Below, in pieces: positions 1 to 39,100 of a stretch of DNA of 64,000 nt. The stretch lies in assembly GCF_027942865.1 (NCBI RefSeq), contig NC_134524.1:5523036-5587035 (forward strand), in the 5' to 3' direction. Both the position numbers and the translations under genes were made by a program. The notes under the pieces are model-generated. The model saw nothing but the letters and a program-made list of their open reading frames with translations. It ran no database searches and had not been told where the DNA came from. Source of the DNA: Odontesthes bonariensis (lineage: Eukaryota > Chordata > Actinopteri > Atheriniformes > Atherinopsidae). Numbering within the stretch: the stretch's first letter is position 1; every line of letters begins with the position of its first letter.

Positions 1-521
1 GATTGTTCAACGCATATGCATACAGTAGAGATGTATGCCTGAATTATGGCGCTACAGTGAATACAAAAGGCAAGAAAGTTCATATGTAATGACTCTATGG
101 CTGCATTATACAATTAGATAGAAACAGCTCCTGAATGGACATTCTGTTCACCAGACACTGTAAACAAATAAAGTTTACATTAATTTTCTACTTATAATTC
201 GAAATGAGAATAAGTCCAAATTAGCTAAACAAGATGTCATAAAAGAGGGAGCAGATGTCAGTGTTAGATTATCAAAAATTGTAGAATTGGGATCTGAATC
301 TATAATATAATTGTCGAAGAATTTTGACTTTTGGATGTGAGGTTCCTGGATAATACAGGAGTTTTATGTCCAGAAGAGGGCAGTATTGCAACTTTTGAGA
401 TACCTGCTGCCAATAAACAACAGAAGAAGAATTCCGCGCTATGCGAGCTTCCGTAGTTTTTTTACTTATAACCGCCGCCGCTGCTGCTGCTGCATTTGCT
501 GCTACTGCTTCTTTGCATACG

Positions 522-861
522 GTAAGTACTGAGTTGTGTTGTTTTCTTTGATAATCGAATCATTTCTGCTTCTGGTCTCATGTGGTTTGCTGCTCATATA
601 TCTGCAACGCGTTACATGTTTTCCTTTGTTTATATCAGATTTGTCCGTTTATCTTCAGTTGGAATTTTGAATTCTGCCGCGCTATTGGCTGTGTTTAGCG
701 TGCCACGTGACTCATGAAGAGAAACATTTTCCTCTTTTTCCGTGTAAATCTCGTTTTTTCCCCCCTTTCTTAGTTGACGTCCTTTGTTCGGATTTTATTT
801 ACAACTTGTTTGTTTTGTATGGTCTTTTTTTTTTATTTAAATTAATTACGTTTTAAATAAC

Positions 862-894
<33 letters not shown>

Positions 895-1257
895 CCACTC
901 GCTTCACGTACTAACCTATTTTGTCCACCAGGGGGCATTGTTTCACCACTAAATGGTTCAAATGAGGTTTTTAAGCTATATTGTGCTCAACTGGTCAGAA
1001 GGAATAATTAAAACGTTTTCTTTCGGTCTCAATGACTAGTTTAGTCACTCATTTCTTTGTACTTGAAGTTTTGGAATTAAAGTCTTGAGCAGTGTTTGTT
1101 TAATTATGTATCTATGTACATGTGTACATGTGTGGTAGCAACATAAAGCTAATGAGATGCTATAAAATTTAGGTAGGTTTACTGGCATCAGTTGAACATG
1201 AGCGAATATTCGTAATGGTAAATAATTACCAGATTTTCTTTTTTTAATCCTCCTCAG
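522..1257 (+). other. 5'UTR intron of TRIM unit 1 (untranslated exon just upstream)
   Basis: A GC-rich stretch rich in CTG/CCG triplets (about 430-521) ends in a strong donor, ACG|GTAAGT. A matching acceptor, TCCTCCTCAG, ends at 1257, 113 bases before the start codon. The same donor and acceptor recur in the other three units. I infer an untranslated first exon spliced to the coding exon. A poly-T run of 30 bases (863-892) lies inside the intron and is much shorter in units 2 and 3. Exon start is not determinable from sequence alone. Confidence 0.6.
704..714 (+). promoter_or_regulatory. Overlapping E-box / AP-1-like site, conserved in all four TRIM units
   Basis: CACGTG (704-709) overlaps TGACTCA (708-714), with an inverted CCAAT (ATTGG) about 20 bases upstream. 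The same block is at 6569-6579, 12416-12426 and 19684-19694. It lies in the 5'UTR intron. Motif identity is seen directly; use as a promoter or enhancer is inference, because recent duplication alone would preserve it in units 1-3. Its retention in the diverged unit 4 is the better argument. Confidence 0.3.
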
Positions 1258-1370
1258 ATCTAATTTCCCGACTGTTGCGGACATACCTCGTTCACAACAA
1301 AAACACAGCTTGGCTTCCCCCGGAGCTCCACAACAGGAAAATTGAGTAAACGCTGCCACTCGAAAGTAAA

Positions 1371-2990
1371 ATGGCTCTAAACAATTTAAAGTTGTATCAG
1401 GAAACCTTCTCTTGTTCGATCTGTCTGGATCTGCTGAAGGATCCGGTGACTATTCCCTGTGGACACAGCTACTGTATGAACTGTATTAAAGGCCACTGGG
1501 ATGGAGAAGAGGGCAGCAGGAACCACAGCTGTCCTCAGTGCAGGAAGATGTTCAGCCCGAGGCCCGTGCTGGTGAAAAACATCATGTTGGCGGAGTTGGT
1601 GGAGGAGCTGAAGAAGACTGAACTCCAAGCTGCTCCAGCTGATCACTGCTATGCTGGAGCTGAAGATGTGGCCTGTGATGTCTGCTCTGGGAGGAAGCTG
1701 AAAGCCATCAAGTCCTGTTTAGTCTGTCTGGCCTCTTACTGTGAGAAACACCTTCAGCCTCACCGTGATGCTCCACCATTACAGAAACACAAGCTGGTCG
1801 ACCCCTCCAAGAAGCTCCAGCAGCACATCTGCCCTCGCCGTGATGAGGTGATGAAGATTTTAGCTGAGGCGTATGAAACGGCCCCAATAGCAGCAGAACG
1901 GGCTGAAAAGCAGAAGGAGCTCAAGGGGAGACGACAACAGATCCAGCAGAGAATCCAGGACGCAGAGAAAGATGTGAAGCTGCTTCAGCAGGAGGTGGAG
2001 GCCATCAATCAGTCTGCTGCTAAAACAGTGGAGCACAGCCAGAAGATCTTCACCGAATTTGTCTGTTTCATCCAGAAGAAAAGCTCTGATGTGAAGCAGC
2101 AGATCAGATCCCAGCGGAAAACCGAAGTGAGTCGAGTCAAAGAGCTTCAGAAGAAGCTGGAGCAGGAGATCACTGAGCTGAGGAGGAAAGATGCAGAGCT
2201 GATTGAGCTCTCACACACAGAGGATCACAGCCAGTTTCTGCACAAATACCCCTCAGTGTCAGCACTCAGGGGGTCTACACACTCATCCAGCATCAAGATT
2301 CGTCCTCTGAGGCACTTTGAGGATGTGACAGCAGCTGTGTCAGAGCTCAGAGATAAACTACAGGACATCCTGAGAGAGGAATGGACCAACATCTCACTGG
2401 CTGAAGTGGATGTTTTACTGTCAGATCCAGAACCAAAGAACAGAGCTGGATTCTTAAAATGTTCAAGAGAAATCACACTGGATCCAAACACAGCACACAC
2501 ACAGCTGTTATTATCTGAGGGGAACAGAAAAGTTACATTCATGGAACAACAACAGTCTTATTCTGATCATCCAGACAGATTCAGTAACTGGAAACAGGTC
2601 CTGAGCAGAGAGAGTCTGACTGGACGCTGTTACTGGGAGGTGGAGTGGGGAGGGGCAGAAGTTTATGTATCAGTCGCATACAAGAATATCAGCAGAGCAG
2701 GAGCCTTGCATGAAAGTTTTTTTGGATTCAACAAAAAATCTTGGTCATTACGTTGTAATATAAACAGTAACAGGTTTTATCACAACAAAGTCCAAACTCC
2801 AGTCCCAGGTCGTCAGACCTACAGAATAGGAGTGTATCTGGACCACAGAGCAGGTATTCTGTCCTTCTACAGCGTCTATGAAACCATGTATCTCCTCCAC
2901 AGAGTCCAGACCACGTTCACTCAGCCGCTCTATGCTGGAGTTTGTCTTTACCATCACGGAGACACAACTGAGTTCATTAAACTGAAATAA
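1371..2990 (+). CDS. TRIM16-like/finTRIM-type E3 ubiquitin ligase, copy 1
   Basis: Predicted 539-residue protein from one uninterrupted coding exon. RING finger at residues 15-57 with the full C3HC4 ligand set (C15, C18, C30, H32, C35, C38, C54, C57), so E3 ubiquitin ligase activity is expected. B-box 1 at 102-140 is complete (C102, C105, C116, C119, C124, H127, H131, H140). The B-box 2 region (154-170) is ruined: C154 remains, but CPRH has become CPRR and 16 residues with the other cysteines are missing relative to the copy at 34982. A long charged coiled coil covers about 175-280. PRY begins near 352 and SPRY ends the protein, with WEVEW (422-426) and the LDHRAG motif near 490-495. The start follows an in-frame-clear leader, and copies 2-4 use the equivalent ATG. 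Family function is ubiquitin ligation, often in antiviral or inflammatory signalling; the target here is unknown. The TAA stop was created by a MITE insertion. Confidence 0.93.
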   Translation: MALNNLKLYQETFSCSICLDLLKDPVTIPCGHSYCMNCIKGHWDGEEGSRNHSCPQCRKMFSPRPVLVKNIMLAELVEELKKTELQAAPADHCYAGAEDVACDVCSGRKLKAIKSCLVCLASYCEKHLQPHRDAPPLQKHKLVDPSKKLQQHICPRRDEVMKILAEAYETAPIAAERAEKQKELKGRRQQIQQRIQDAEKDVKLLQQEVEAINQSAAKTVEHSQKIFTEFVCFIQKKSSDVKQQIRSQRKTEVSRVKELQKKLEQEITELRRKDAELIELSHTEDHSQFLHKYPSVSALRGSTHSSSIKIRPLRHFEDVTAAVSELRDKLQDILREEWTNISLAEVDVLLSDPEPKNRAGFLKCSREITLDPNTAHTQLLLSEGNRKVTFMEQQQSYSDHPDRFSNWKQVLSRESLTGRCYWEVEWGGAEVYVSVAYKNISRAGALHESFFGFNKKSWSLRCNINSNRFYHNKVQTPVPGRQTYRIGVYLDHRAGILSFYSVYETMYLLHRVQTTFTQPLYAGVCLYHHGDTTEFIKLK

Positions 2991-3442
2991 GCCCGATTCG
3001 CACGGGACTTGTATTATCTATGGACCCCCCCGTAATTTGGAATAATTGCGGAGAATGTCTGAGTTCTTAGTCCTGTGCGAATGCGCCATGTCCGTGATTT
3101 GTGGGGTAATAATTCCCGCTGCGAATTACCTGCTGTGTTTCGGCGAAGCACAGACGTCCTGTGGTAATTTAAGTCCCGTGTGAACGCACACGTGTGTGTT
3201 TGTGAATGCAATCGCACATCTCTTGTTTTGTCCTGGAGTAAACAATGGACGGTATTGCCGAACGGGGCAAAACAGGAAGTTAAGACAATTACGGAATATC
3301 CGCTCATGATGTCTGTGATTTGAGTAAATTACAGACTTTTGCTTGTCCCGTCCGAATGCGCCACAAAAAAATACAGAGGTGTGGGGGTAGTTGCGAATTA
3401 CCAGTGATCCATAGGTAATATTTATCCCATGCAAATTGGACT
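2990..3442. mobile_element. 453 bp MITE inserted in the stop codon of TRIM copy 1
   Basis: The ends are inverted repeats of about 35 bases, AGCCCGATTCGCAC... and ...AATTGGACT. A 3-base direct repeat, ATA, flanks it (2987-2989 and 3443-3445). The empty site survives at the TRIM copy 34982-36646, where the CDS ends GAAATAGACAG. No ORF of note. A 3 bp A/T-rich target duplication fits PIF/Harbinger-type transposition, but family assignment is inference. It now forms the start of the 3'UTR. Confidence 0.8.
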
Positions 3443-4430
3443 ATAGACAGAAGTCATTTCAGGGACAGTTGGTTAAAATGTGTTTTAGTTTCCACTTTAT
3501 TTAGTCTCCATCATTGTTGAGTCATTTCTTCACTGCACAGAGATCAGCTGTCAGTCAAACTTTATGGGTGGTGTAGGAGCTATTTCTCTGTTTCTAGTTA
3601 AGTCTTAGAATTTAGATTTATTTGATATTATTTCCTTTTTTTTTTGGTTGATAATTCGTATTTTTGTTTAGGATAAATTGGTTTGTAATTCATTTGATTA
3701 ACTTTTTGTTTGGGGAAATGGGCGTTTCACACATAAATACGCAGGTTTTAGGGAGCTCTGGACGCACTTGGGTGGTCACATGGTTTTTTACCAGTTCTCA
3801 GTCAGTCAATCAGTGGGTGAACAGGTGAGGCAAGCAGGCAGAAAGAGCGGGAATCAGAGCAGGAGAGGCAGGAAGGGATCATGTGAAGCATGAACCATGT
3901 TGGTTTTACTTGCAAACTTGGAATAAATCCATGATGAACTACATTTTTTGACGTTTTGGACCTTTTTGTGATATTATGTTATGTTTATTTTTAGTTTGGT
4001 CACCTTTTAGTTCAAAGTTTTTATTATTTTCATAGACAAATAGTCACTACAGGTGGTACTTTGACCTCTGATTGGTTGGTGTTTAGTTGGTGTTGGACTT
4101 TGTTTGGGTGGCGCTCCTTCCTGTCTGTTCAGTCATGGAGGCTATCACTGCTCAGCAGGACTTTTATCCTCCTGAACTAATTACATTTACAATCACTGGT
4201 TTGTCAGACCAAATGTTGTTGTTGTTCAGATCCATGTACAGATGAGGTAAACTGTGATTATCATGATCATCATCAGTCATTATTTTATTGCTCACAGCTG
4301 ATATTCTGAGTCAAACACACTGATTGTGAGGATGAAGAGAATCTGTGCATGAAATCATTGAACAAGAGTCATTTAGCAGATTGTACTGAAATAATGTGTC
4401 ATCAAACTGAAGCTTTACATGATCAATAAA
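3443..4430 (+). other. 3' untranslated/flanking region of TRIM copy 1 with poly(A) signals
   Basis: This segment is shared with the copies at 7224 and 13069 and also follows the copy at 34982, so it is ancestral TRIM 3' sequence. AATAAA occurs in TTGGAATAAATCC near 3920 and in GATCAATAAAGAC at 4425-4430. The second sits in a context (AAGCTTTACATGAT) resembling that of the signal after the diverged copy 4 (22106-22111), which makes it the better candidate. No ORF of note. Confidence 0.5.
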
Positions 4431-4572: not shown

Positions 4573-5197
4573 AGCCCTATTCGGACGTTACTAGTTCAAT
4601 GGGGGGACGTATGGTAATGTTGGTTAACCAGACGACGCCAGGGAGAAGAAATCCCTGTAATATTCATCTAACATGGGAGGAGTTTTCTTGAATATAAAGC
4701 ATTCTGCTCCAAAATTATTGTATACAAACGCAGAAGACTTTTTTGTTTGTTTACCTGAATGATAAGTATTACCAAAACGTATTGTACAGTATAACAGAAC
4801 AAGAGATTTATTCATTTTTTACCTTAATGTAAAGTACTGTCCACCAAAAGTTTTGCTCAGGATACTTATTTTACCTGAATGTAAAGTATAGTTTAAAAAA
4901 AGGATTGCACAACGAAACTTAAGTGTCATTTTCTATTTTACACCTAATTGTTTCTCTCTTTAAAAGGATGTGACGACATATTCCGTACTTATTACCGAAG
5001 GTCGCATTCGCACGGGATTAGTATTACCTATGGTAGATACTCCGGACCGTTTCACAGGAGGTAGAATTCTCGGCAAAGTTTACCGACATACTCCGCTATC
5101 TTTACTGACATGGCGCGTTCGTACGGGACTAGATTTCCCGGTTATTATTACTTTACCCCAGGTCCCCCCATTAAACTAGTCCCGTCCGAATAGGGCT
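4573..5197. mobile_element. 625 bp MITE in the 3' flank of unit 1
   Basis: Terminal inverted repeats begin AGCCCTATTCGGACG and end CGTCCGAATAGGGCT, apart from small indels. Flanks are TTA and TAA. The ends resemble those of the stop-codon MITE (AGCCC.ATTCG), so the two are probably related families. The same insertion is at 10423-11045 in unit 2. In unit 3 the corresponding point reads ATAGTTAGATTG (about 16347-16358) with no element. The 69-codon ORF inside it is chance. Confidence 0.75.
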
Positions 5198-5861
5198 TAA
5201 GATTGTTTTCAATGTTATTAATATGTGTGCTCAAACTGAAGCGTTGCATGATAAATAAAGCTGTTTTTATCTCTATAATTATATTAATCTTCCGCATTTA
5301 TTCCAACATTTAAGACAAAGGTTATTATGCAAATTTTGAATTGATTGCGGTTTAACTGAGGGAGTTTTCCTCCAAAAATTCAGCAAGGCACACTTGCCTT
5401 ACACAACAGGATCAACACAATCCACCGGATGGCAACAGAACACAAAGATTATTCCTTAAGTTTTCTTAACACAGAAGATGTGAATTTATTTAAGTAAACA
5501 CTTTCCTCCTTTTCCAGTAATATGCACTACGACTGTAAAAAATAATAATATTTTAGACTATATTTAGGTTGTTTTTAAGATCTGTTAAAACTTTCCCAGT
5601 ATGTGCACTCCAAGTAGATAGATAGATACTTACTTACTTATTTTATTAATCCCAAGGGAAATTTAAGGATGCAGTAGCTTATACAGACAGACACAGAATA
5701 CACAATACACTGATTACAAATCGGAATACAAAAAGTAGTAGAAGCTAGTGAAATAACATCACACGCGTGTAAGAAAGTACTTTTGGCTAATTACTGGAAG
5801 AATTGAGGTTATTTAGAGATGAGTCAAAAGATCCAATGACACTTCCAAGATGTGAAATTGA
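5198..5861 (+). repeat. Unit 1 distal flank with a dispersed-repeat tail
   Basis: Contains a second version of the TRIM 3' end motif (CAAACTGAAGCG...AATAAAG near 5230-5260). It also contains a short dispersed repeat at about 5638-5725, beginning TTTATTAATCCCAAGGGAAA, followed by CAGACAGACACAGAATACAC. That tail recurs at about 11486 and 18765, and the TTTAT...CCC core recurs near 22215 and 22420. It looks like a retroelement 3' end. No gene is seen. Confidence 0.45.
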
Positions 5862-7223: not shown

Positions 7224-8843
7224 ATGGCTCTAAACAATTTAAAGTTGTATCAGGAAACCTTCTCTTGTTCGATCTGTCTGGATCTGCTGAAGGATCCGGT
7301 GACTATTCCCTGTGGACACAGCTACTGCATGAACTGTATTAAAGGCCACTGGGATGGAGAAGAGGGCAGCAGGAACCACAGCTGTCCTCAGTGCAGGAAG
7401 ACGTTCAGCCCGAGGCCCGTGCTGGTGAAAAACATCATGTTGGCGGAGTTGGTGGAGGAGCTGAAGAAGACTGAACTCCAAGCTGCTCCTGCTGATCACT
7501 GCTATGCTGGAGCTGAAGATGTGGCCTGTGATGTCTGCTCTGGGAGGAAGCTGAAAGCCATAAAGTCCTGTTTAGTCTGTCTGGCCTCTTACTGTGAGAA
7601 ACACCTTCAGCCTCACCGTGATGCTCCACCATTACAGAAACACAAGCTGGTCGACCCCTCCAAGAAGCTCCAGCAGCACATCTGCCCTCGCCGTGATGAG
7701 GTGATGAAGATTTTAGCTGAGGCGTATGAAACGGCCCCAATAGCAGCAGAACGGGCTGAAAAGCAGAAGGAGTTGAAGGGGAGACGACAACAGATCCAGC
7801 AGAGAATCCAGGACAGAGAGAAAGATGTGAAGCTGCTTCAGCAGGAGGTGGAGGCCATCAATCAGTCTGCTGCTAAAACAGTGGAGCACAGCCAGAAGAT
7901 CTTCACCGAATTTGTCTGTTTCATCCAGAAGAAAAGCTCTGATGTGAAGCAGCAGATCAGATCCCAGCGGAAAACCGAAGTGAGTCGAGTCAAAGAGCTT
8001 CAGAAGAAGCTGGAGCAGGAGATCACTGAGCTGAGGAGGAAAGATGCAGAGCTGATTGAGCTCTCACACACAGAGGATCACAGCCAGTTTCTGCACAAAT
8101 ACCCCTCAGTGTCAGCACTCAGGGGGTCTACACACTCATCCAGCATCAAGATCCGTCCTCTGAGGCACTTTGAGGATGTGACAGCAGCTGTGTCAGAGCT
8201 CAGAGATAAACTACAGGACATCCTGAGAGAGGAATGGACCAACATCTCACTGGCTGAAGTGGATGTTTTACTGTCAGATCCAGAACCAAAGAACAGAGCT
8301 GGGTTCTTAAAATGTTCAAGAGAAATCACACTGGATCCAAACACAGCACACACACAGCTGTTATTATCTGAGGGGAACAGAAAAGTTACATTCATGGAAC
8401 AACAACAGTCTTATTCTGATCATCCAGACAGATTCACTAACTGGAAACAGGTCCTGAGCAGAGAGAGTCTGACTGGACGCTGTTACTGGGAGGTGGAGTG
8501 GGGAGGGGGAGCAGTTCATATAGCAGTCGCATACAAGAATATCAGCAGAGCAGGAGAGTCACATGAATGTTTATTTGGATTCAACAAAAAATCTTGGTCA
8601 TTACGTTGTAATATAAACAGTAACAGGTTTTTTCACAACAAAGTCCAAACTCCAGTCCCAGGTCGTCAGACCTACAGAATAGGAGTGTATCTGGACCACA
8701 GAGCAGGTATTCTGTCCTTCTACAGCATATATGAAACCATGTATCTCCTCCACAGAGTCCAGACCACGTTCACTCAGCCGCTCTATGCTGGAGTTTGGCT
8801 TTACTATCAAGGAGACACAACTGAGTTCATTAAACTGAAATAA
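7224..8843 (+). CDS. TRIM16-like/finTRIM-type E3 ubiquitin ligase, copy 2
   Basis: Predicted 539 residues, same architecture as copy 1: C3HC4 RING (15-57), intact B-box 1 (102-140), disabled B-box 2 (CPRR, 16-residue gap), coiled coil, PRY-SPRY. By my count it differs from copy 1 at 17 residues. Only M60T and A198R lie before residue 400. The other 15 are in B30.2, nine of them between residues 429 and 450, with more at 470, 502, 525, 528 and 529. The N-terminal catalytic half is therefore almost fixed while the predicted recognition surface varies. The CDS ends in a MITE-derived TAA. One distal AATAAA is present; the earlier GGAATAAATCC has become GGAATGAATCC here. Confidence 0.93.
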   Translation: MALNNLKLYQETFSCSICLDLLKDPVTIPCGHSYCMNCIKGHWDGEEGSRNHSCPQCRKTFSPRPVLVKNIMLAELVEELKKTELQAAPADHCYAGAEDVACDVCSGRKLKAIKSCLVCLASYCEKHLQPHRDAPPLQKHKLVDPSKKLQQHICPRRDEVMKILAEAYETAPIAAERAEKQKELKGRRQQIQQRIQDREKDVKLLQQEVEAINQSAAKTVEHSQKIFTEFVCFIQKKSSDVKQQIRSQRKTEVSRVKELQKKLEQEITELRRKDAELIELSHTEDHSQFLHKYPSVSALRGSTHSSSIKIRPLRHFEDVTAAVSELRDKLQDILREEWTNISLAEVDVLLSDPEPKNRAGFLKCSREITLDPNTAHTQLLLSEGNRKVTFMEQQQSYSDHPDRFTNWKQVLSRESLTGRCYWEVEWGGGAVHIAVAYKNISRAGESHECLFGFNKKSWSLRCNINSNRFFHNKVQTPVPGRQTYRIGVYLDHRAGILSFYSIYETMYLLHRVQTTFTQPLYAGVWLYYQGDTTEFIKLK

Positions 8844-9295
8844 GCCCGATTCGCACGGGACTTGTATTATCTATGGACCCCCCCGTAATTTGGAATAATT
8901 GCGGAGAATGTCTGAGTTCTTAGTCCTGTGCGAATGCGCCATGTCCGTGATTTGTGGGGTAATAATTCCCGCTGCGAATTACCTGCTGTGTTTCGGCGAA
9001 GCACAGACGTCCTGTGGTAATTTAAGTCCCGTGTGAACGCACACGTGTGAGTTTGTGAATGCAATCGCACATCTCTTGTTTTGTCCTGGAGTAAACAATG
9101 GACGGTATTGCCGAACGGGGCAAAACAGGAAGTTAAGACAATTACGGAATATCCGCTCATGATGTCTGTGATTTGAGTAAATTACAGACTTTTGCTTGTC
9201 CCGTCCGAATGCGCCACAAAAAAATACAGAGGTGTGGGGGTAGTTGCGAATTACCAGTGATCCATAGGTAATATTTATCCCGTGCGAATTGGACT
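8843..9295. mobile_element. Stop-codon MITE, unit 2 copy
   Basis: Same 453 bp element, orientation and position as in unit 1, so it arrived before the unit was duplicated. The right terminus here keeps CCCGTGCGAATT, which pairs better with the left end than the unit 1 version (CCCATGCAAATT). Confidence 0.8.
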
Positions 9296-10422
9296 ATAGA
9301 CAGAAGTCATTTCAGGGACAGTTGGTTAAAATGTGTTTTAGTTTCCACTTTATTTAGTCTCCATCATTGTTGAGTCATTTCTTCACTGCACAGAGATCAG
9401 CTGTCAGTCACACTTTATGGGTGGTGTAGGAGCCATTTCTCTGTTTCTAGTTAAGTCTTAGAATTTAGATTTATTTGATATTATTTCCTTATTTTTTTTG
9501 GTTGATAATTCGTATTTTTGTTTAGGATAAATTGGTTTGTAATTCATTTGATTAACTTTTTGTTTGGGGGAATGGGCGTTTCACACATAAATACGCAGGT
9601 TTTAGGGAGCTCTGGACGCACTTGGGTGGTCACATGGTTTTTTACCAGTTCTCAGTCAGTCAATCAGTGGGTGAACAGGTGAGGCAAGCAGGCAGAAAGA
9701 GCGGGAATCAGAGCAGGAGAGGCAGGAAGGGATCCTGTGAAGCATGAACCATGTTGGTTTTACTTGCAAACTTGGAATGAATCCATGATGAACTACATTT
9801 TTTGACGTTTTGGACCTTTTTGTGATATTATGTTATGTTTATTTTTAGTTTGGTCACCTTTTAGTTAAAAGTTTTTATTATTTTCATAGACAAATAGTCA
9901 CTACAGGTGGTACTTTGACCTCTGATTGGTTGGTGTTTAGTTGGTGTTGGACTTTGTTTGGGTGGCGCTCCTTCCTGTCTGTTCAGTCATGGAGGCTATC
10001 ACTGCTCAGAGGGACTTTTATCCTCCTGAACTAATTACATTTACATTCACTGGTTTGTTAGACCAAATGTTGTTGTTGTTCAGATCCATGTACAGATGAG
10101 GCAAACTGTGATTATCATGATCATCATCAGTCATTATTTTATTGCTCACAGCTGATATTCTGAGTCAAACACACTGATTGTGAGGATGAAGAGAATCTGT
10201 GCATGAAATCATTGAACAAGAGTCATTTAGCAGATTGTACTGAAATAATGTGTCATCAAACTGAAGCTTTACATGATCAATAAAGACAATGTTTCTTTTG
10301 AATAAACAAGATTTTTGTTCTTTATTTCAGGATCTTACATTAAGCTGATGGCGTTTTTTTTTTTTTTATTTTTAATAAATAATATAAGAGAATAACTTAC
10401 ATTGTGAAAGGGGCTATAGTTA
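9296..10422 (+). other. 3' untranslated/flanking region of TRIM copy 2
   Basis: Homologous to 3443-4572, including the GATCAATAAAGAC poly(A) signal near 10278. No gene is seen. Confidence 0.45.
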
Positions 10423-13068: not shown

Positions 13069-14688
13069 ATGGCTCTAAACAATTTAAAGTTGTATCAGGA
13101 AACCTTCTCTTGTTCGATCTGTCTGGATCTGCTGAAGGATCCGGTGACTATTCCCTGTGGACACAGCTACTGCATGAACTGTATTAAAGGCCACTGGGAT
13201 GGAGAAGAGGGCAGCAGGAACCACAGCTGTCCTCAGTGCAGGAAGACGTTCAGCCCGAGGCCCGTGCTGGTGAAAAACATCATGTTGGCGGAGTTGGTAG
13301 AGGAGCTGAAGAAGACTGAACTCCAAGCTGCTCCTGCTGATCACTGCTATGCTGGAGCTGAAGATGTGGCCTGTGATGTCTGCTCTGGGAGAAAGCTGAA
13401 AGCCATCAAGTCCTGTTTAGTCTGTCTGGCCTCTTACTGTGAGAAACACCTTCAGCCTCACCGTGATGCTCCACCATTACAGAAACACAAGCTGGTCGAC
13501 CCCTCCAAGAAGCTCCAGGAGAACATCTGCCCTCGCCGTGATGAGGTGATTAAGATTTTAGCTGAGGCGTATGAAACGGCCCCAATAGCAGCAGAACGGG
13601 CTGAAAAGCAGAAGGAGCTCAAGGGGAGACGACAACAGATCCAGCAGAGAATCCAGGACGCAGAGAAAGATGTGAAGCTGCTTCAGCAGGAGGTGGAGGC
13701 CATCAATCAGTCTGCTGCTAAAACAGTGGAGCACAGCCAGAAGATCTTCACCGAATTTGTCTGTTTCATCCAGAAGAAAAGCTCTGATGTGAAGCAGCAG
13801 ATCAGATCCCAGCGGAAAACCGAAGTGAGTCGAGTCAAAGAGCTTCAGAAGAAGCTGGAGCAGGAGATCACTGAGCTGAGGAGGAAAGATGCAGAGCTGA
13901 TTGAGCTCTCACACACAGAGGATCACAGCCAGTTTCTGCACAAATACCCCTCAGTGTCAGCACTCAGGGGGTCTACACACTCATCCAGCATCAAGATCCG
14001 TCCTCTGAGGCACTTTGAGGATGTGACAGCAGCTGTGTCAGAGCTCAGAGATAAACTACAGGACATCCTGAGAGAGGAATGGACCAACATCTCACTGGCT
14101 GAAGTGGATGTTTTACTGTCAGATCCAGAACCAAAGAGCAGAGCTGGATTCTTAAAATGTTCAAGAGAAATCACACTGGATCCAAACACAGCACACACAC
14201 AGCTGTTATTATCAGAGGGGAACAGAAAAGTTACATTCATGGAACAACAGCAGTCTTATTCTGATCATCCAGACAGATTCAGTACCTGGAAACAGGTCCT
14301 GAGCAGAGAGAGTCTGACTGGACGCTGTTACTGGGAGGTGGAGTGGAGAGGGGCAGAAGTTTATGTATCAGTCGCATACAAGAATATCAGCAGAGCAGGA
14401 GCCTTGCATGAAAGTTTTTTTGGATTCAACAAAAAATCTTGGTCATTACGTTGTAATATAAACAGTAACAGGTTTTATCACAACAAAGTCCAAACTCCAG
14501 TCCCAGGTCGTCAGACCTACAGAATAGGAGTGTATCTGGACCACAGAGCAGGTATTCTGTCCTTCTACAGCGTCTATGAAACCATGTATCTCCTCCACAG
14601 AGTCCAGACCACGTTCACTCAGCCGCTCTATGCTGGAGTTTGTCTTTACCATCACGGAGACACAACTGAGTTCATTAAACTGAAATAA
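13069..14688 (+). CDS. TRIM16-like/finTRIM-type E3 ubiquitin ligase, copy 3
   Basis: Predicted 539 residues: C3HC4 RING (15-57), intact B-box 1, disabled B-box 2, coiled coil, PRY-SPRY. It differs from copy 1 at about seven residues: M60T, Q151E, H152N, M161I, N357S, N406T and G427R. In B30.2 it carries the copy 1 version of the variable stretch (EVYVSVAYKN..AGALHESF), although its 5' flank is closest to copy 2. Its LQENICP segment at 149-155 is shared with copy 4 rather than with copies 1 and 2 (LQQHICP). The gene is therefore a mosaic, best explained by gene conversion or unequal crossover within the array. The stop is the MITE-derived TAA. Confidence 0.93.
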   Translation: MALNNLKLYQETFSCSICLDLLKDPVTIPCGHSYCMNCIKGHWDGEEGSRNHSCPQCRKTFSPRPVLVKNIMLAELVEELKKTELQAAPADHCYAGAEDVACDVCSGRKLKAIKSCLVCLASYCEKHLQPHRDAPPLQKHKLVDPSKKLQENICPRRDEVIKILAEAYETAPIAAERAEKQKELKGRRQQIQQRIQDAEKDVKLLQQEVEAINQSAAKTVEHSQKIFTEFVCFIQKKSSDVKQQIRSQRKTEVSRVKELQKKLEQEITELRRKDAELIELSHTEDHSQFLHKYPSVSALRGSTHSSSIKIRPLRHFEDVTAAVSELRDKLQDILREEWTNISLAEVDVLLSDPEPKSRAGFLKCSREITLDPNTAHTQLLLSEGNRKVTFMEQQQSYSDHPDRFSTWKQVLSRESLTGRCYWEVEWRGAEVYVSVAYKNISRAGALHESFFGFNKKSWSLRCNINSNRFYHNKVQTPVPGRQTYRIGVYLDHRAGILSFYSVYETMYLLHRVQTTFTQPLYAGVCLYHHGDTTEFIKLK

Positions 14689-15139
14689 GCCCGATTCGCA
14701 CGGGACTTGTATTATCTATGGACCCCCCGTAATTTGGAATAATTGCGGAGAATGTCTGAGTTCTTAGTCCTGTGCGAATGCGCCATGTCCGTGATTTGTG
14801 GGGTAATAATTCCCGCTGCGAATTACCTGCTGTGTTTCGGCAAAGCACAGACGTCCTGTGGTAATTTAAGTCCCGTGTGAACGCACACGTGTGTGTTTGT
14901 GAATGCAATCGCACATCTCTTGTGTTGTCCTGGAGTAAACAATGGACGGTATTGCCGAACGGGGCAAAACAGGAAGTTAAGACAATTACGGAATATCCGC
15001 TCATGATGTCTGTGATTTGAGTAAATTACAGACTTTTGCTTGTCCCGTCCGAATGCGCCACAAAAAAATACAGAGGTGTGGGGGTAGTTGCGAATTACCA
15101 GTGATCCATAGGTAATATTTATCCCGTGCGAATTGGACT
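14688..15139. mobile_element. Stop-codon MITE, unit 3 copy
   Basis: 452 bp, same position and orientation as in units 1 and 2, one C fewer in the GGACCCCCC run. Flanked by ATA. Confidence 0.8.
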
Positions 15140-20347: not shown

Positions 20348-21976
20348 ATGTCTCTAAACAAATTAAAGTTGGATCAGGAAACCTTCTCTTGTTCGATCTG
20401 TCTGGATCTGCTGAAGGATCCGGTGACCATTCCCTGTGGACACAGCTACTGCATGAACTGTATAAAAGCCCACTGGGATGGAGAAGAGGGCAGCAGGGTC
20501 CACAGCTGTCCTCAGTGCAGGAAGACGTTCAGACCGAGGCCTGTGCTGGTGAAAAACATCATGTTGGCGGAGTTGGTGGAGGAGCTGAAGAAGACTGGAC
20601 TCCAAGCTGCTCCAGCTGATCACTGCTATGCTGGAGCTGAAGATGTGGCCTGTGATGTCTGCTCTGGGAGGAAGCTGAAAGCCATCAAGTCCTGTTTAGT
20701 CTGTCTGGCCTCTTACTGTGAGAAACACCTCCAACCTCACCGTGATGCTCCACCATTAAAGAAACACAAGCTGATCGACCCCTCCAAGAAGCTCCAGGAG
20801 AACATCTGCCCTCGCCGTGATGAGGTGATGAAGATTTTAGCTGAGGCGTATGAAACGGCCCCAATAGCAGCAGAACGGGCTGAGAAGCAGAAGGAGCTGG
20901 AGGGGAGTCGGCAACAGCTCCAGCAGAGAATCCAGGACAGAGAGAAAGATGTGAAGCTGCTTCAGCAGGAGGTGGAGGCCATCAATCAGTCTGCTGATAA
21001 AACAGTGGAGCACAACGAGAAGATCTTCACCGAATTGGTCCGTTTCATCCAGAAAAGAAGCTCTGACGTGAAGAAACAGATCAAATCCCAGCAGAAAACC
21101 GAAGTGAGTCGAGTCAAAGAGCTTCAGAAGAAGCTGGAGCAGGAGATCACTGAGCTGAAGAGGAAAGATGCTGAGCTGGAGCAGCTCTCACACACAGAGG
21201 ATCACAGCCAGTTTCTGCAGAAATACCCCTCAGTGTCAGCACTCAGGGGGGCTACACACTCATCCAGCATCAATATCCGTCCTCTGAGGTACTTTGAGGA
21301 TGTGACAGCAGCTGTGTCAGAGCTCAGAGATAAACTACAGGACATCCTGAGAGAGAACTTGACCAACATCTCACTGACGGTGAGTGATGCAGATGTTCTC
21401 CTTTCAAAACAAGAGCCAAAAACCAGAGCCGACTTCTTAAAATACTCAAGAGAAATCACGCTGGATCCGAACTCCACAAATAAAGAGCTGGTGTTGTCCG
21501 AGGGCAACAGAAGAGCAACGTTCATGAAACAAAAACAGTCGTATCCCAGTCATCCGGACAGATTCACCTACTGGTGCCAGGTCCTGAGCAGAGAGAGTCT
21601 GACCGGGCGCTGCTACTGGGAGGTGCAGTACAGAGGAGGAGCCGTTGTTGTGGCAGTCTCGTACAAGAACATCAGAAGATCGGGTTCACTCTACGAATGC
21701 TCTTTCGGATGTAATGACAAATCTTGTGCGTTATCCTGTCACAGAGAGGGTTACACAGTCTACTTCAACAGCAGCTTCATCACCGTCTCGGCCCCGCTGT
21801 GTTTCAGAATAGGAGTGTACCTGGACCACAGAGCAGGTGTTCTGTCCTTCTACAGAGTCACTGAGACCATGACTCTCCTCCACAGAGTCCAGACCACGTT
21901 CACCCAGCCGTGCCACGCCGGACTTCGCTTTTTCGACTCTGTCGGAGACTACGCTGAGTTCATTAAACTCAAGTGA
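20348..21976 (+). CDS. TRIM16-like/finTRIM-type E3 ubiquitin ligase, copy 4 (diverged)
   Basis: Predicted 542 residues. C3HC4 RING (15-57), intact B-box 1, the same disabled B-box 2 (CPRR followed by the 16-residue gap) as copies 1-3, coiled coil, PRY-SPRY. It is clearly older than the other three: changes are spread through the coiled coil and are dense in B30.2. The variable stretch reads VQYRGGAVVVAVSYKNI, and the C-terminal loop is RFFDSVGDYAEF. The CDS ends in TGA with no MITE, and the 3' flank is unrelated to the shared TRIM 3' sequence. AATAAA at 22106-22111 follows an AAGCTTTACC context like that of the other units, giving a short 3'UTR of about 150 bases. Confidence 0.92.
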   Translation: MSLNKLKLDQETFSCSICLDLLKDPVTIPCGHSYCMNCIKAHWDGEEGSRVHSCPQCRKTFRPRPVLVKNIMLAELVEELKKTGLQAAPADHCYAGAEDVACDVCSGRKLKAIKSCLVCLASYCEKHLQPHRDAPPLKKHKLIDPSKKLQENICPRRDEVMKILAEAYETAPIAAERAEKQKELEGSRQQLQQRIQDREKDVKLLQQEVEAINQSADKTVEHNEKIFTELVRFIQKRSSDVKKQIKSQQKTEVSRVKELQKKLEQEITELKRKDAELEQLSHTEDHSQFLQKYPSVSALRGATHSSSINIRPLRYFEDVTAAVSELRDKLQDILRENLTNISLTVSDADVLLSKQEPKTRADFLKYSREITLDPNSTNKELVLSEGNRRATFMKQKQSYPSHPDRFTYWCQVLSRESLTGRCYWEVQYRGGAVVVAVSYKNIRRSGSLYECSFGCNDKSCALSCHREGYTVYFNSSFITVSAPLCFRIGVYLDHRAGVLSFYRVTETMTLLHRVQTTFTQPCHAGLRFFDSVGDYAEFIKLK

Positions 21977-33179: not shown

Positions 33180-36100
33180 GTACGATTTTAGTCAGATTTT
33201 GGGCGAAAAGGGTTCAAATTGACCTTTATAATGGAAAACAGCCACCAAAATGCATAAAACCACCACAAAGAGATTAAAAATGGCTGCAAACTGACCACTA
33301 AAACATAAAGGAATCACAAAAAAAATTTTGAATAATTCGTAAGATTGCGTAAAGCAACGTTAACCAAGAGAGGTGGTAAGTAAGTGCCTACAAATAAAAT
33401 TCCACAAGAATATGCAAAACTGCCCCAAACAGACACAAAACAACCACATAGAGGCATAACATGACAACTGAAAGGCGAAAAATTATAGCAAAAAGATATA
33501 AAAACAACTGCAGACTCATAAACAAACAAGAACAAATCAGCAAAAAGACATAAATTATTGGAATAGAACAGGACACAAAGTGCCAAAGAAACCTCAAACA
33601 ACCAAGAGGAACAACTAAAACTATCACGAAATACAAAGCAAAACAACAAAGTGATGCAATAAGACTACAAACTGACAACTAAGAGAATAACTTTACTTTA
33701 CAATTTGGCTGTTTGGATTCGCCATTGAGACGCACCAGCAAAAACGAAAAAATTAAGAGTCTGCCTGACCCAAACAATTTTTGTGATCTCAATCTGGCTC
33801 CCCTGTGTTGGCCTTGGCTGCCAGCTGCAACTTCTCCTGGATGCTATGTAAATAAGACGCTCTGCCCCCCTTATGTGCTCCCTCCCCTTCCTGAGGACTC
33901 CTGTGGAAACTGTTTAGGCTGGTTGATAAACTTTCCATCACATTATCAAGGACAATGGCTTCTGAGATGGTGCTTCATGGACTTACTGGCACACACTCAC
34001 ACACACACATACTCAATGATTAACATTAATTCCCACATCTCCTCACCGGTCCCAATGCTTGATGTTGTGTGTATGTGTTGCTTTTTTTTGTGCTGAGGTT
34101 TTTTGCAATCTCAAACTGTATCCTGGTAAGGGTAAAGTGTGAAATATAATTTTTTTTCTCTCCTCCTCTCACCTAATGTGGTATTTTCTCCTATCTGGCA
34201 GCGCTTATCACTGAGCTGCATGGCCACGGTCACCCGTGTCCCGCTTCTTTGTTTTTTATGTTGTCTATCTGGATGGGTCGTATTATTAAGTATTATTGAA
34301 TTGAAATTTAAATGATCAGCAGTTAGAGACTCGGGTTACTGACCAGAGCGACAAAGTGCAGCAGGTTCATGCCCGGTTTGTTGGCCTTGGTGTCAGCGAG
34401 AGACAGGAGGGATGACAACTTGAAGCCAACTGCGTTCCCTGCATAACCTCCCTGCAACACACAACACAGCAGTGAGACACAAACACAGTGCTGCACGCAC
34501 AAAAGATTCAGCAGGGGAGCAGGAGAACTCCATTTCCCATGATGCAGCTGCTCTTACTGCTGCGGTTTCCTGAAAAGAAAGAGCAAAAATAACCCGTAGG
34601 ACCTGATGTTTGTGCGTTTTGTTTAATGCGATCTAACATTAAACTACAGAAGATATTTTGTAACATCTCATATTTATTCTGCTTTCCTCAGACTGAATTT
34701 GAGTTGTTTCAGTCATTTAAATCTAAAGTCGTTTATGAGAATCTGAACATTTTCAGATTTACTCTGACGTAACAAAGAGTTAAACACACAGTCAAACTCA
34801 CAAAAGCTTCACTCTGTTCACGTATTTGCATGTTTGCCTATGGGTGTAACCGACCTGTGCTGAACGCTAAGAGCTGATTGGTTCATTTCACTGCAGAGAC
34901 GCAAGTTGTTACATCAGAGCTGAAACCTGTTTCTGTTGTAAGGAAGTAAAACTCACACAGTCAGTGTTACTGAGAGCTGAAATGGCGCAGAAAGGAGTTC
35001 AGATGGATCAGGAAACCATTTCTTGTTTGATCTGTCTGGATTTGCTGAAGGATCCGATGACTATTCCCTGTGGACACAACTACTGCATGAACTGTATTAA
35101 AGGCCACTGGGATGGAGAGGATCGGAAGGGAATCCACAGCTGTCCTCAGTGCAGGGAAACTTTCCTACCGAGGCCTGTCCTGAAGAAAAACACCATGTTA
35201 GCTGATTTAGTGGAGCAGCTGAAGAAGACTGGACTCCAAGCTGCTCCTGCTGATCACTGCTATGCTGGAGCTGAAGATGTGGCCTGTGATGTCTGCTCTG
35301 GGAGGAAGCTGAAAGCCATCAAGTCCTGTCTGGTGTGTCTGGCCTCTTACTGTGAGAAGCACCTCCAACCTCACCGTGATGCTCCACCATTACAGAAACA
35401 CAAGCTGATCAACCCCTCCAAGAAGCTCCAGCAGCACATCTGCCCTCGTCATGATGAGGTGATGAAGATTTTCTGCCGTACTGATCAGCAGAGTATCTGT
35501 TATCTCTGCTTAATGGAGGAACATAAAGGCCATGAAACAGTGACAGCTGCAGCAGAAAGGACTGAGAGGCAGAAGGAGCTGGAGGGGAGTCGGCAACAGA
35601 TCCAGCAGAGAATCCAGGACGCAGAGAAAGATGTGAAGCTGCTTCAGCAGGAGGTGGAGGCCATCCATCAGTCTGCTGATAAAACAGTGGAGCACAGCCA
35701 GAAGATCTTCACTGAGCTGATCCGTCTCCTCCAGAAAAGAAGCTCTGATGTGACGCAGCAGATCAGATCCCAGCAGGAAGCTGAAGGGAGTCGAGTCAAA
35801 GAGCTTCAGAAGAAGCTGGAGCAGGAGATCACTGAGCTGAAGAGGAAAGATGCTGAGCTGAAGCAGCTCTCACACACAGAGGATCACAGCCAGTTTCTGC
35901 ACAGCTGCCCCTCAGTGGCAGCACTCAGGGGGGCTACACACTCATCCAGCATCAAGATCCGTCCTCTGAGGTACTTTGAGGATGTGACAGCAGCTGTGTC
36001 AGAGCTCAGAGATAAACTACAGGACATCCTGAGAGAGGAATGGACCAACATCTCACTGACTGAAGTGGATGTTTTACTGTCAGAACAAGAACCAAAGAGC

Positions 36101-39100
36101 AGAGCTGGGTTCTTAAAATGTTCAAGAGAAATCACACTGGATCCAAACACAGCACACACACAGCTGTTATTATCTGAGGGGAACAGAAAAGTTACATTCA
36201 TGGAACAACAACAGTCTTTTTCTGATCATCCAGACAGATTCAGTGACTTCAGTCAGGTTCTGAGCAGAGAGAGTCTGACTGGACGCTGTTACTGGGAGGT
36301 GGAGTGGAGAGGGGGAGGAGTTTATGTAGCAGTCGCATACAAGAATATCAGCAGAGCAGGATTCTCTGAATGTTTATTTGGAAACAACAACAAATCTTGG
36401 TCATTATGTTGTGACAGAAACAGTTACAGGTTTGACCACAACTCAGTTCGAACTCCAGTCTCAGGTCCTCGGTCCTCCAGAATAGGAGTGTATCTGGACC
36501 ACAGAGCAGGTATTCTGTCCTTCTACAGCGTCTCTGAAACCATGACTCTCCTCCACAGAGTCCAGACCTCATTCACTCAGCCGCTCTGTGCTGGAGTTTG
36601 GCTTTACTATCAAGCAGTCACAGCTGAGTTCATTAAACTGAAATAGACAGAAGTCATTTCAGGGACAGTTGGTTAAAATGTGTTTTAGTTTCCACTTTAT
36701 TTAGTCTCCATCATTGTTGAGTCATTTCTTCACTGCACAGAGATCAGCTGTCAGTCACACTTTATGGGTGGTGTAGGAGCTATTTCTCTGTTCTTAGTTA
36801 AGTCTTAGAATTTAGATTTATTTTATATCATTTGCTTTGTTTTTGGTTGATAATTAGTATTTTTGTTTAACTTTAGTTGTTTAGGATAAATTGGTTTGTA
36901 ATTAATTTAATTATTTTTTGTTTAGGGAAATGGGCGTTTCACACATAAATACGTAGGTTTTAGGGAGCTCTGGACGCACTTGGGTGGTCACATGGTTTTT
37001 TACCAGTTCTCAGCCAGTCAATCAGTGGGTGAACAGGTGAGGCAAGCAGGCAGAAAGAGCGGGAATCAGAGCAGGAGAGGCAGGAAGGGATCCTGTGAAG
37101 CATGAACCATGTTGGTTTTGCCTGCAAACTTGGAATAAATCCATGAACTACATTTTTTGATGTTTTGGACCTTTTTGTACTGTTATGTTATGTTTATTTT
37201 TGGTTTGGTCACCTTTAAGTTAAAAGTTTTTATTATTTTCATAGACAAATATGCCCCTTTTCCACCGAACATTTTTGTACCAACACAGCTCTACACGGTC
37301 CCACTCTACCCTGATTCTCAGCAGTGCCGAGACAAGCTGAAGAGTGATTACCGGCAGGTAAGGGACCACAACAGCCGGAGTGGGTCAAACCGAAAGACAT
37401 GGAAGTGGTTTGACCAAATGGACAGCATTTACGGTCACCGCCCGGCGAACGAGAGTGGCGTGGATACGGCGACGTCTTTGTTGGAGGCGATGGAAAATGG
37501 TAAGTGTTGTTCTTATCCCCTTGGTGCAACGCTTATATCTTAACAAATGCATGTTTTATATCGTAACAAATACATGTTCAGTCTTTAACTTGTGTAAAGC
37601 GTTACAGGTGTCTCATGTAAATTGTTCTGAGTGAGCTAGCAAACAACGCTGTTTTGGAAGGCTAGCAGTGTCCGGCACCAACACTGGCGTCGCCTGTATC
37701 TGAGACAACTCCTGCTGTTTACTTTTGTACTGTCTTTTTTAATAAAGAGCTTGGTTTAACTAAACAATATGAACTGTCAACTGCATTCCACATTACACTC
37801 CATCGTTGTGTTAACTTTTGACTAACCACGGCGAGACACTTTGTAGTCACCTGAAACCGACGTCACGTTAGTGGTGAACGGGCCGACTCCGCCCACTTCC
37901 AGGACACAGTTTGGGTGGAAAAGGAAATGTTACTGGTGCCGTGTCGTGTGGTGTAGTGTTGGGCTATATCGAACTGAGTAGAGTAGGGCTAGCTTGGCGG
38001 TGGAAAAGGGGCAATAGTCACTACAGGTGGTACTTTGACCTCTGATTGGTTGGTGTTTAGTTGGTGTTGGACTTTGTTTGGGTGGCGCTCCTTCCTGTCT
38101 GTTCAGTCATGGAGGCTATCACTGCTCAGCATGACTTTTATCCTCCTGAACTAATTACATTTACAATCACTGGTTTGTCAGACCAAATGTTGCTGTTGTA
38201 AATTTCTTTTTTTTTTTTTTTTTAATTTTCTTAATTTTTCTTAATTATTATTTTTTATTCTTATTTTTTTATTATTTTTTTTATTTATTATTATTATGAT
38301 TATTATTATTTTTTTTTTTTTTGTACAGCACTTTGGTCAACTGATGTTGTTGTAAAGGGCTTTATAAATAAAATTGGATTGGATTGGTTGTTGTTCAGAT
38401 CCATGTACAGATGAGGTAAACTGTGATTATCATGATCATCATCAGTCATTATTTTATTGCTCACAGCTGATATTCTGAGTCATTTAGCATATTTTACTGA
38501 TTTAATGTGTCATCAAACAAAGTTTTAGTGGTTGTTTTTTCTTGTTTTTCAGTTTTATGCAACAGTAATATCAGTCTTGAATCTATCTAATCATGTTTTA
38601 AATACATAAAATGTGTTGATGCTTCTCTCTAAGTCTGTAACTGTAATCCATGTTTGCTTTAAAGGGTGAAACATTCAGAATCAAACAGCAAAAGTTTTGA
38701 AGCCACTGCTTTGGCTTCAAAACCTTTGACTCGTATTGTCGCTTCTTGGAAGAGATTTTTGACGTAGCCAAAAAGTTTGATTCAGTTTGTCTTCAGTCAC
38801 TGAAAGCAGCTTTTCTGCCATCTTAGTTTCGTGTTTTACTTAATTCAGCTTCTCACCTGTAGATTCTATTAGTACATAATAAATTACGCTCTTATTAACT
38901 TGGAACCACCTCTACCTTCCTGACACCTGTAGCTCAGAAAGTACCAACAGCCCCATGTACCATGTTCATGTTTTAACACCAGGGGATGCCATTGCACCAC
39001 ACCTGGAGCCATAAGAGGCGCACAGAAGAATAGCACTGTTCAGGGGATAATAGAAGAAGAAGAAAGCTGGAATACTGGATCATTCTCACAGTGAGCACTT

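Follow-up and report, generated by a model that had tools for sequence, protein, structure and literature searches.

Can a transposable element split a stop codon and leave the encoded protein unchanged, and what does such an insertion, when shared by neighbouring genes, record of their history? Both questions are raised by a group of TRIM genes in Odontesthes bonariensis, located in a 64,000-nucleotide stretch of DNA (C24:5523036-5587035; the window) that was analysed here together with searches of the 945-Mb genome. The window contains five TRIM copies (copies 1–5), and related loci outside it are designated L046, L049–L051, L056 and L127. Very probably, a single insertion of a Tourist-like MITE, at A-ATA-G, interrupted the stop codon of a TRIM gene with a copy 5-like 3′ end before tandem triplication of that gene, and the stop was rebuilt as TAA with no change to the protein.

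The TRIM genes and the insertion site

Copy 1 (1371..2990, rightwards) encodes 539 amino acids with RING, coiled coil and PRY-SPRY regions and ends with CTG AAA TAA, the stop codon occupying 2988–2990. The MITE lies at 2990..3442 in the same orientation (453 bp, with ends AGCCCG…GGACT), such that its first base is also the third base of the stop codon. It is flanked by two copies of ATA, at 2987..2989 and 3443..3445, and the downstream copy is followed by GACAG, the first base of which is the G of the old TAG. The pre-existing 3′UTR and 3′ flank extend from 3446 to 4313 on the same strand, with an AATAAA at 3922. The same junction recurs at 8843 in copy 2 (CDS 7224..8843; MITE 8843..9295, 453 bp) and at 14688 in copy 3 (CDS 13069..14688; MITE 14688..15139, 452 bp), both rightwards. 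Copy 5 (34982..36646, rightwards) has an empty site with the sequence GAAATAGACAG and the stop TAG at 36644–36646. Copy 4 (20348..21976, rightwards) has the same 5′ flank as copies 1–3 and a similar 5′ part, differs from them in its SPRY region, stop codon (TGA) and 3′ flank, and is without the MITE. Direct reading of these junctions bears out the coordinates and letters of a first-pass annotation of the window, including the TAG end of copy 5, the junction common to copies 1–3 and ATA as the target duplication. Another MITE-like stretch, also with inverted ends (AAGCCCTATTCGGAC…), was seen by eye 3′ of copy 1, at 4575–5205.

A Pfam domain scan of copies 1, 4 and 5 identifies RING, B-box, coiled coil and PRY-SPRY in copy 5, and RING, TRIM_CC, PRY and SPRY in copies 1 and 4, where no B-box (PF00643) is matched at E 0.01 and an ANCHR-like B-box at 102–141 falls below the cut-off. 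Copies 1–4 are without a second B-box segment, the sequence LAEAYETAP standing in its place; the segment is present in copy 5, L049, L051 and L056. The frame of L050 is open for the last 235 codons only (stop counted) in the stretch read, and contains a run of Glu-Pro repeats. Compared by domains and clustering only, the genes resemble the teleost PRY-SPRY TRIM multigene families of the finTRIM type as described in PMC2657112, with RING, coiled coil and PRY-SPRY and related genes clustered, although copies 1 and 4 differ from these in having no PF00643 match.

Identity of the element

Searched against the genome, the stretch with the copy 1 insertion yields at least 56 matches (40 of 420 candidates scored, such that counts are lower bounds), and relatives are present in all 37 stretches fetched outside the window. 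The terminal inverted repeats of the copy 1 element have 35-nt arms that are 74% complementary, and its longest stop-to-stop frames, both on the minus strand, span 104 amino acids. Thirty-one non-TRIM copies could be read at both ends; 27 have AG…CT ends, and the four with other end letters were left out. Identical 3-bp flanks are found at 17 of the 27 and identical 4-bp flanks at none (exact agreement at 1, 2, 3 and 4 bp: 9, 8, 17 and 0), compared to a mean of 6.2 and a maximum of 15 for shuffled 3-bp flanks. The exact duplications are TAA (6), TTA (4), TTT (4), GAG, AAA and CAA (one each); the other 10 copies have no exact duplication. The inverted repeats, the dispersed relatives and the recurrence of these ends together with 3-bp duplications show that the stretch is no chance pattern and uphold the earlier proposal of a MITE insertion.

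A sister MITE family of ~415 bp has at least 40 copies with 98–100% identity to one copy (40 of 190 candidates scored), and because they are so alike the family was probably active recently. Among 37 further copies fetched, 34 are readable by pattern, with exact 3-bp duplications in 22 and 4-bp agreement in none (7, 5, 22 and 0 at 1, 2, 3 and 4 bp); shuffled 3-bp flanks have a mean of 10.6 and a maximum of 20 because the targets are so similar, which makes this set weaker evidence than its counts suggest. A larger scan of 43 loci, from which three duplicates were dropped, gave 37 unique flanks; 25 have exact 3-bp duplications (TAA 11, TTA 10, TTT 3, TAT 1; TTA or TAA in 21 of 25) and 12 do not. 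The duplication is preceded by C in 21 of the 25 and followed by G in 22, corresponding to a target of WCTWAGW. The maize PIF 9-bp target word is centred on CTTAG; it was not found in the literature under the spelling tried.

The element is dispersed and short and apparently carries no coding gene; with inverted ends, 3-bp duplications and, in the sister family, a palindromic target, it fits a non-autonomous PIF/Harbinger-type (Tourist-like) MITE. PIF/Harbinger elements are described as generating 3-bp target duplications (PMC9179366) and as having an extended target preference (PMC2836001). Tourist-like MITEs such as mPing and its relatives share the family-level 3-bp TWA duplication, extended palindromic target, inverted ends, dispersal and small size, but the element described here differs in its ends (AGCCC…GGGCT), in the ATA duplication of the TRIM-borne copy and in that no autonomous partner with the same ends was found among the transposase loci fetched. 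ATA is off the preferred TWA and is not represented among the exact duplications of either the sister family (0/25) or the element's own family (0/17), and only T-A-G of the five CTWAG core bases fit at the TRIM site.

The genome contains at least 150 matches to the DDE_Tnp_4 transposase (150 of 3145 candidates scored), a family that also matches in one of 14 control genomes. The end motif of the element, allowing up to four mismatches within ~1.5 kb on each side, is present in none of the 12 DDE_Tnp_4 loci fetched. The inner part of a longer form of the element (~850 bp) gives 15 matches, two of which (C25:29288506-29295334) apparently belong to a single copy whose parts lie 6.4 kb apart and overlap by 5 bases, in what looks like a nested insertion.

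Reconstitution of the stop codon and the 3′UTR

The old TAG is split after TA, and the upstream copy of the duplication, which ends in TA, forms TAA together with the terminal A of the element, as had been suggested, such that the end of the copy 1 protein is the same and is not extended. This outcome was enumerated for both real element ends at each of three positions (after base 1, 2 or 3) in TAG, TAA and TGA; a stop is kept at the same codon in all 18 combinations. Insertion after the third base leaves the stop intact anyway, and among true splits the stop is kept in 12 of 12, by T+AG (TAG), TA+A (TAA) or TG+A (TGA) according to register. Control ends in the same enumeration fail in four of nine combinations when starting with GG and in six of nine when starting with CA. 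Because both element ends begin 5′-AG, a stop is rebuilt wherever any stop codon is split, and the seamless outcome therefore depends on nothing but a hit on the stop. Given such a hit, it is certain for this AG…CT family, and the notion that so seamless an insertion is a rare coincidence is not supported.

The preferred target CTTAG includes TAG in the same register as the copy 1 split, and is found at eight of the 25 exact sites of the ~415-bp sister family, with its complement CTAAG at six. AG…CT-ended elements with CTTAG-type targets could constitute a 'stop-safe' class, able to hit any stop codon without protein change; they should then accumulate at stop codons and start new 3′UTRs at a much higher rate than differently ended elements, a generalization that is offered tentatively and is rather unlikely to hold. 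A literature search, mostly of titles and the starts of abstracts and thus weak evidence of absence, turned up no account of a stop codon split and rebuilt by a MITE. The stop-codon insertion belongs to a known class of events and works by a neat mechanism.

The element had also been credited with giving the gene a new 3′UTR, a claim that needs revision. Neither AATAAA nor ATTAAA is present in the copy 1 element or between the stop codon and 3922, where the first AATAAA lies 477 nt past the downstream duplication; one is located 489 nt past the same point in copy 5. Since the first signal is in the retained flank, the old 3′UTR is, judged at the DNA level, predicted to be kept and lengthened by 456 nt rather than replaced. 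The first polyadenylation signal in copy 2 is at 10279, and the signal at the place aligned with that of copy 1 seems to have been lost from its sequence. The pre-existing copy 1 flank is common with L049–L051 to 4313 and with copy 5 to 4225, copy 5 having ~0.8 kb of extra sequence inside. The shared 3′UTR also holds another dispersed repeat of ~410 bp (36772–37182 and the matching part of copies 1–3), which occurs at many genomic places, includes the AATAAA and is possibly a solo LTR.

Folded as RNA, the element outscores each of 100 shuffled sequences (z −5.19), and its retention could reflect regulation of these TRIM genes by a structured RNA directly after the stop codon. MITEs are known in the 3′UTRs of 1,182 rice genes, and the account of rice Ghd2 describes a MITE in a 3′UTR, upstream of the native transcript end, that represses translation (PMC5338036). 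However, such folding is expected of any inverted-repeat element, a MITE included, and the Ghd2 effect is described as depending mainly on a plant Dicer-like protein (PMC5338036); retention of the TRIM-borne element for such regulation is improbable. The Ghd2 element moreover is Stowaway-like rather than Tourist-like, and no splitting of a stop codon is described for it, the term 'stop codon' being absent from the text seen of that source (PMC5338036).

One insertion in a mosaic gene array

The three TRIM-borne elements have 3–4 differences from each other in 452–453 bases. Set against the majority base of 12 related copies at each of 420 clear columns, they have eight differences in common, and 2–3 per copy are not shared by all three. 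Copies 1–3 form a supported clade in both the SPRY part (100/100) and the 3′UTR (100/98), and their 3′UTRs differ by 1.0–2.7% among themselves and by 3.3–4.2% from those of copy 5 and L049–L051 (L127 left out); divergence from L056 is 3.8–4.6%, over 130 bases only. Independent insertions in copies 1, 2 and 3 are ruled out by the same site, the same duplication and the eight shared differences from related copies. A single insertion and subsequent tandem duplication of a ~5.85-kb unit explain the three copies, in agreement with the first-pass annotation, which had placed the insertion before the triplication.

The six further genes identified as sharing this 3′ end (copy 5, L049, L050, L051, L056 and L127; 40 of 449 candidates scored) all have an intact empty TAG site, and a diverged seventh gene, L046, also ends in TAG and differs in its downstream sequence. 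The 3′ flank of copy 4, which has the stop TGA, is without a match among the sequences compared. The element and gene flank are joined only at the three window copies among the matches scored (40 of 420 candidates). Were the insertion ancestral, TAG would be a restored state left by precise excision from copy 5 and the other empty genes, and no footprint would be expected: excision of PIF/Harbinger elements reportedly tends to be perfect (109 of 110 events in one yeast assay, a count that its authors note could be biased by selection; PMC2836001), so a missing footprint does not count against it. Several excisions would be needed, however, with six separate empty genes against one supported filled clade, and the diverged L046 ends in TAG too, such that this course of events is highly improbable. 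Insertion is much the most parsimonious reading and, with six empty genes and one filled clade, far likelier than excision.

The history of the genes that carry the insertion is less simple. In a tree of the 5′ part (L050, which does not align there, and L127 left out) copies 1–3 group with copy 4 (100/100); in the SPRY part (L127 left out) they group with copy 5 and its relatives, with an ambiguous order within the group, and copy 4 is far outside on a long branch. Informative sites in copy 1 switch from copy 4-like to copy 5-like within 2248..2379 on the forward strand, with 74 of 88 copy 4-like left of 2300 and 104 of 108 copy 5-like to the right; the last copy 4-like site, 2990, belongs to the MITE itself. 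With the genes divided where the coiled coil ends, synonymous divergence in the 5′ part is 0.256 between copies 1 and 5 and 0.075 between copies 1 and 4; in the 3′ part the values are 0.044 and 0.541, respectively. The PF00643 match is absent from the 5′ part of copies 1 and 4 and present in that of copy 5. Copies 1–3 are thus mosaics with a copy 4-like 5′ part and a copy 5-like 3′ part. Between copies 1–3 and the copy 5-type genes, dN exceeds dS in the PRY-SPRY part (0.094 and 0.044, respectively, for copies 1 and 5), which suggests possible diversifying selection there.

With a copy 5-like tract that spans the insertion site, the element could have inserted in a copy 5-type donor gene that is now lost or lies outside the searched set, and gene conversion or unequal exchange could then have carried it, along with the 3′ end, to the ancestor of copies 1–3. 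This is possible and somewhat unlikely: no copy 5-type gene with the element is present among the genome matches scored (40 of 420 candidates), where the only gene–element joins are the three in the window, and the data fit an insertion that followed the exchange just as well. Given the mosaic structure and the usually precise excision reported for PIF/Harbinger elements, the expectation that the insertion would give a clear polarity for the family is not supported as it stood.

The preferred reading remains a single insertion before triplication. The junctions, duplication and empty sites point to one insertion of a non-autonomous PIF/Harbinger-type MITE at A-ATA-G across the stop codon; the 3-bp duplication left the TA of TAG upstream, the terminal A of the element gave TAA with no change to the protein, and at the DNA level the old 3′UTR now lies 456 nt further downstream. 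Tandem triplication of the gene carrying the insertion would then account for the site shared by copies 1–3. The insertion may have been nearly neutral and simply carried along, or may have had a mild effect via a structured 3′UTR.

Because copies 1–3 are mosaics, what their shared insertion traces is the history of their 3′ segment; where the genes of an array recombine, a common insertion dates a segment rather than the gene as a whole. The locus raises the genome-wide question of whether AG-ended MITEs are over-represented at stop codons, and it shows letter by letter that the end sequence and target preference of a transposon decide whether a stop-codon hit is visible to selection.
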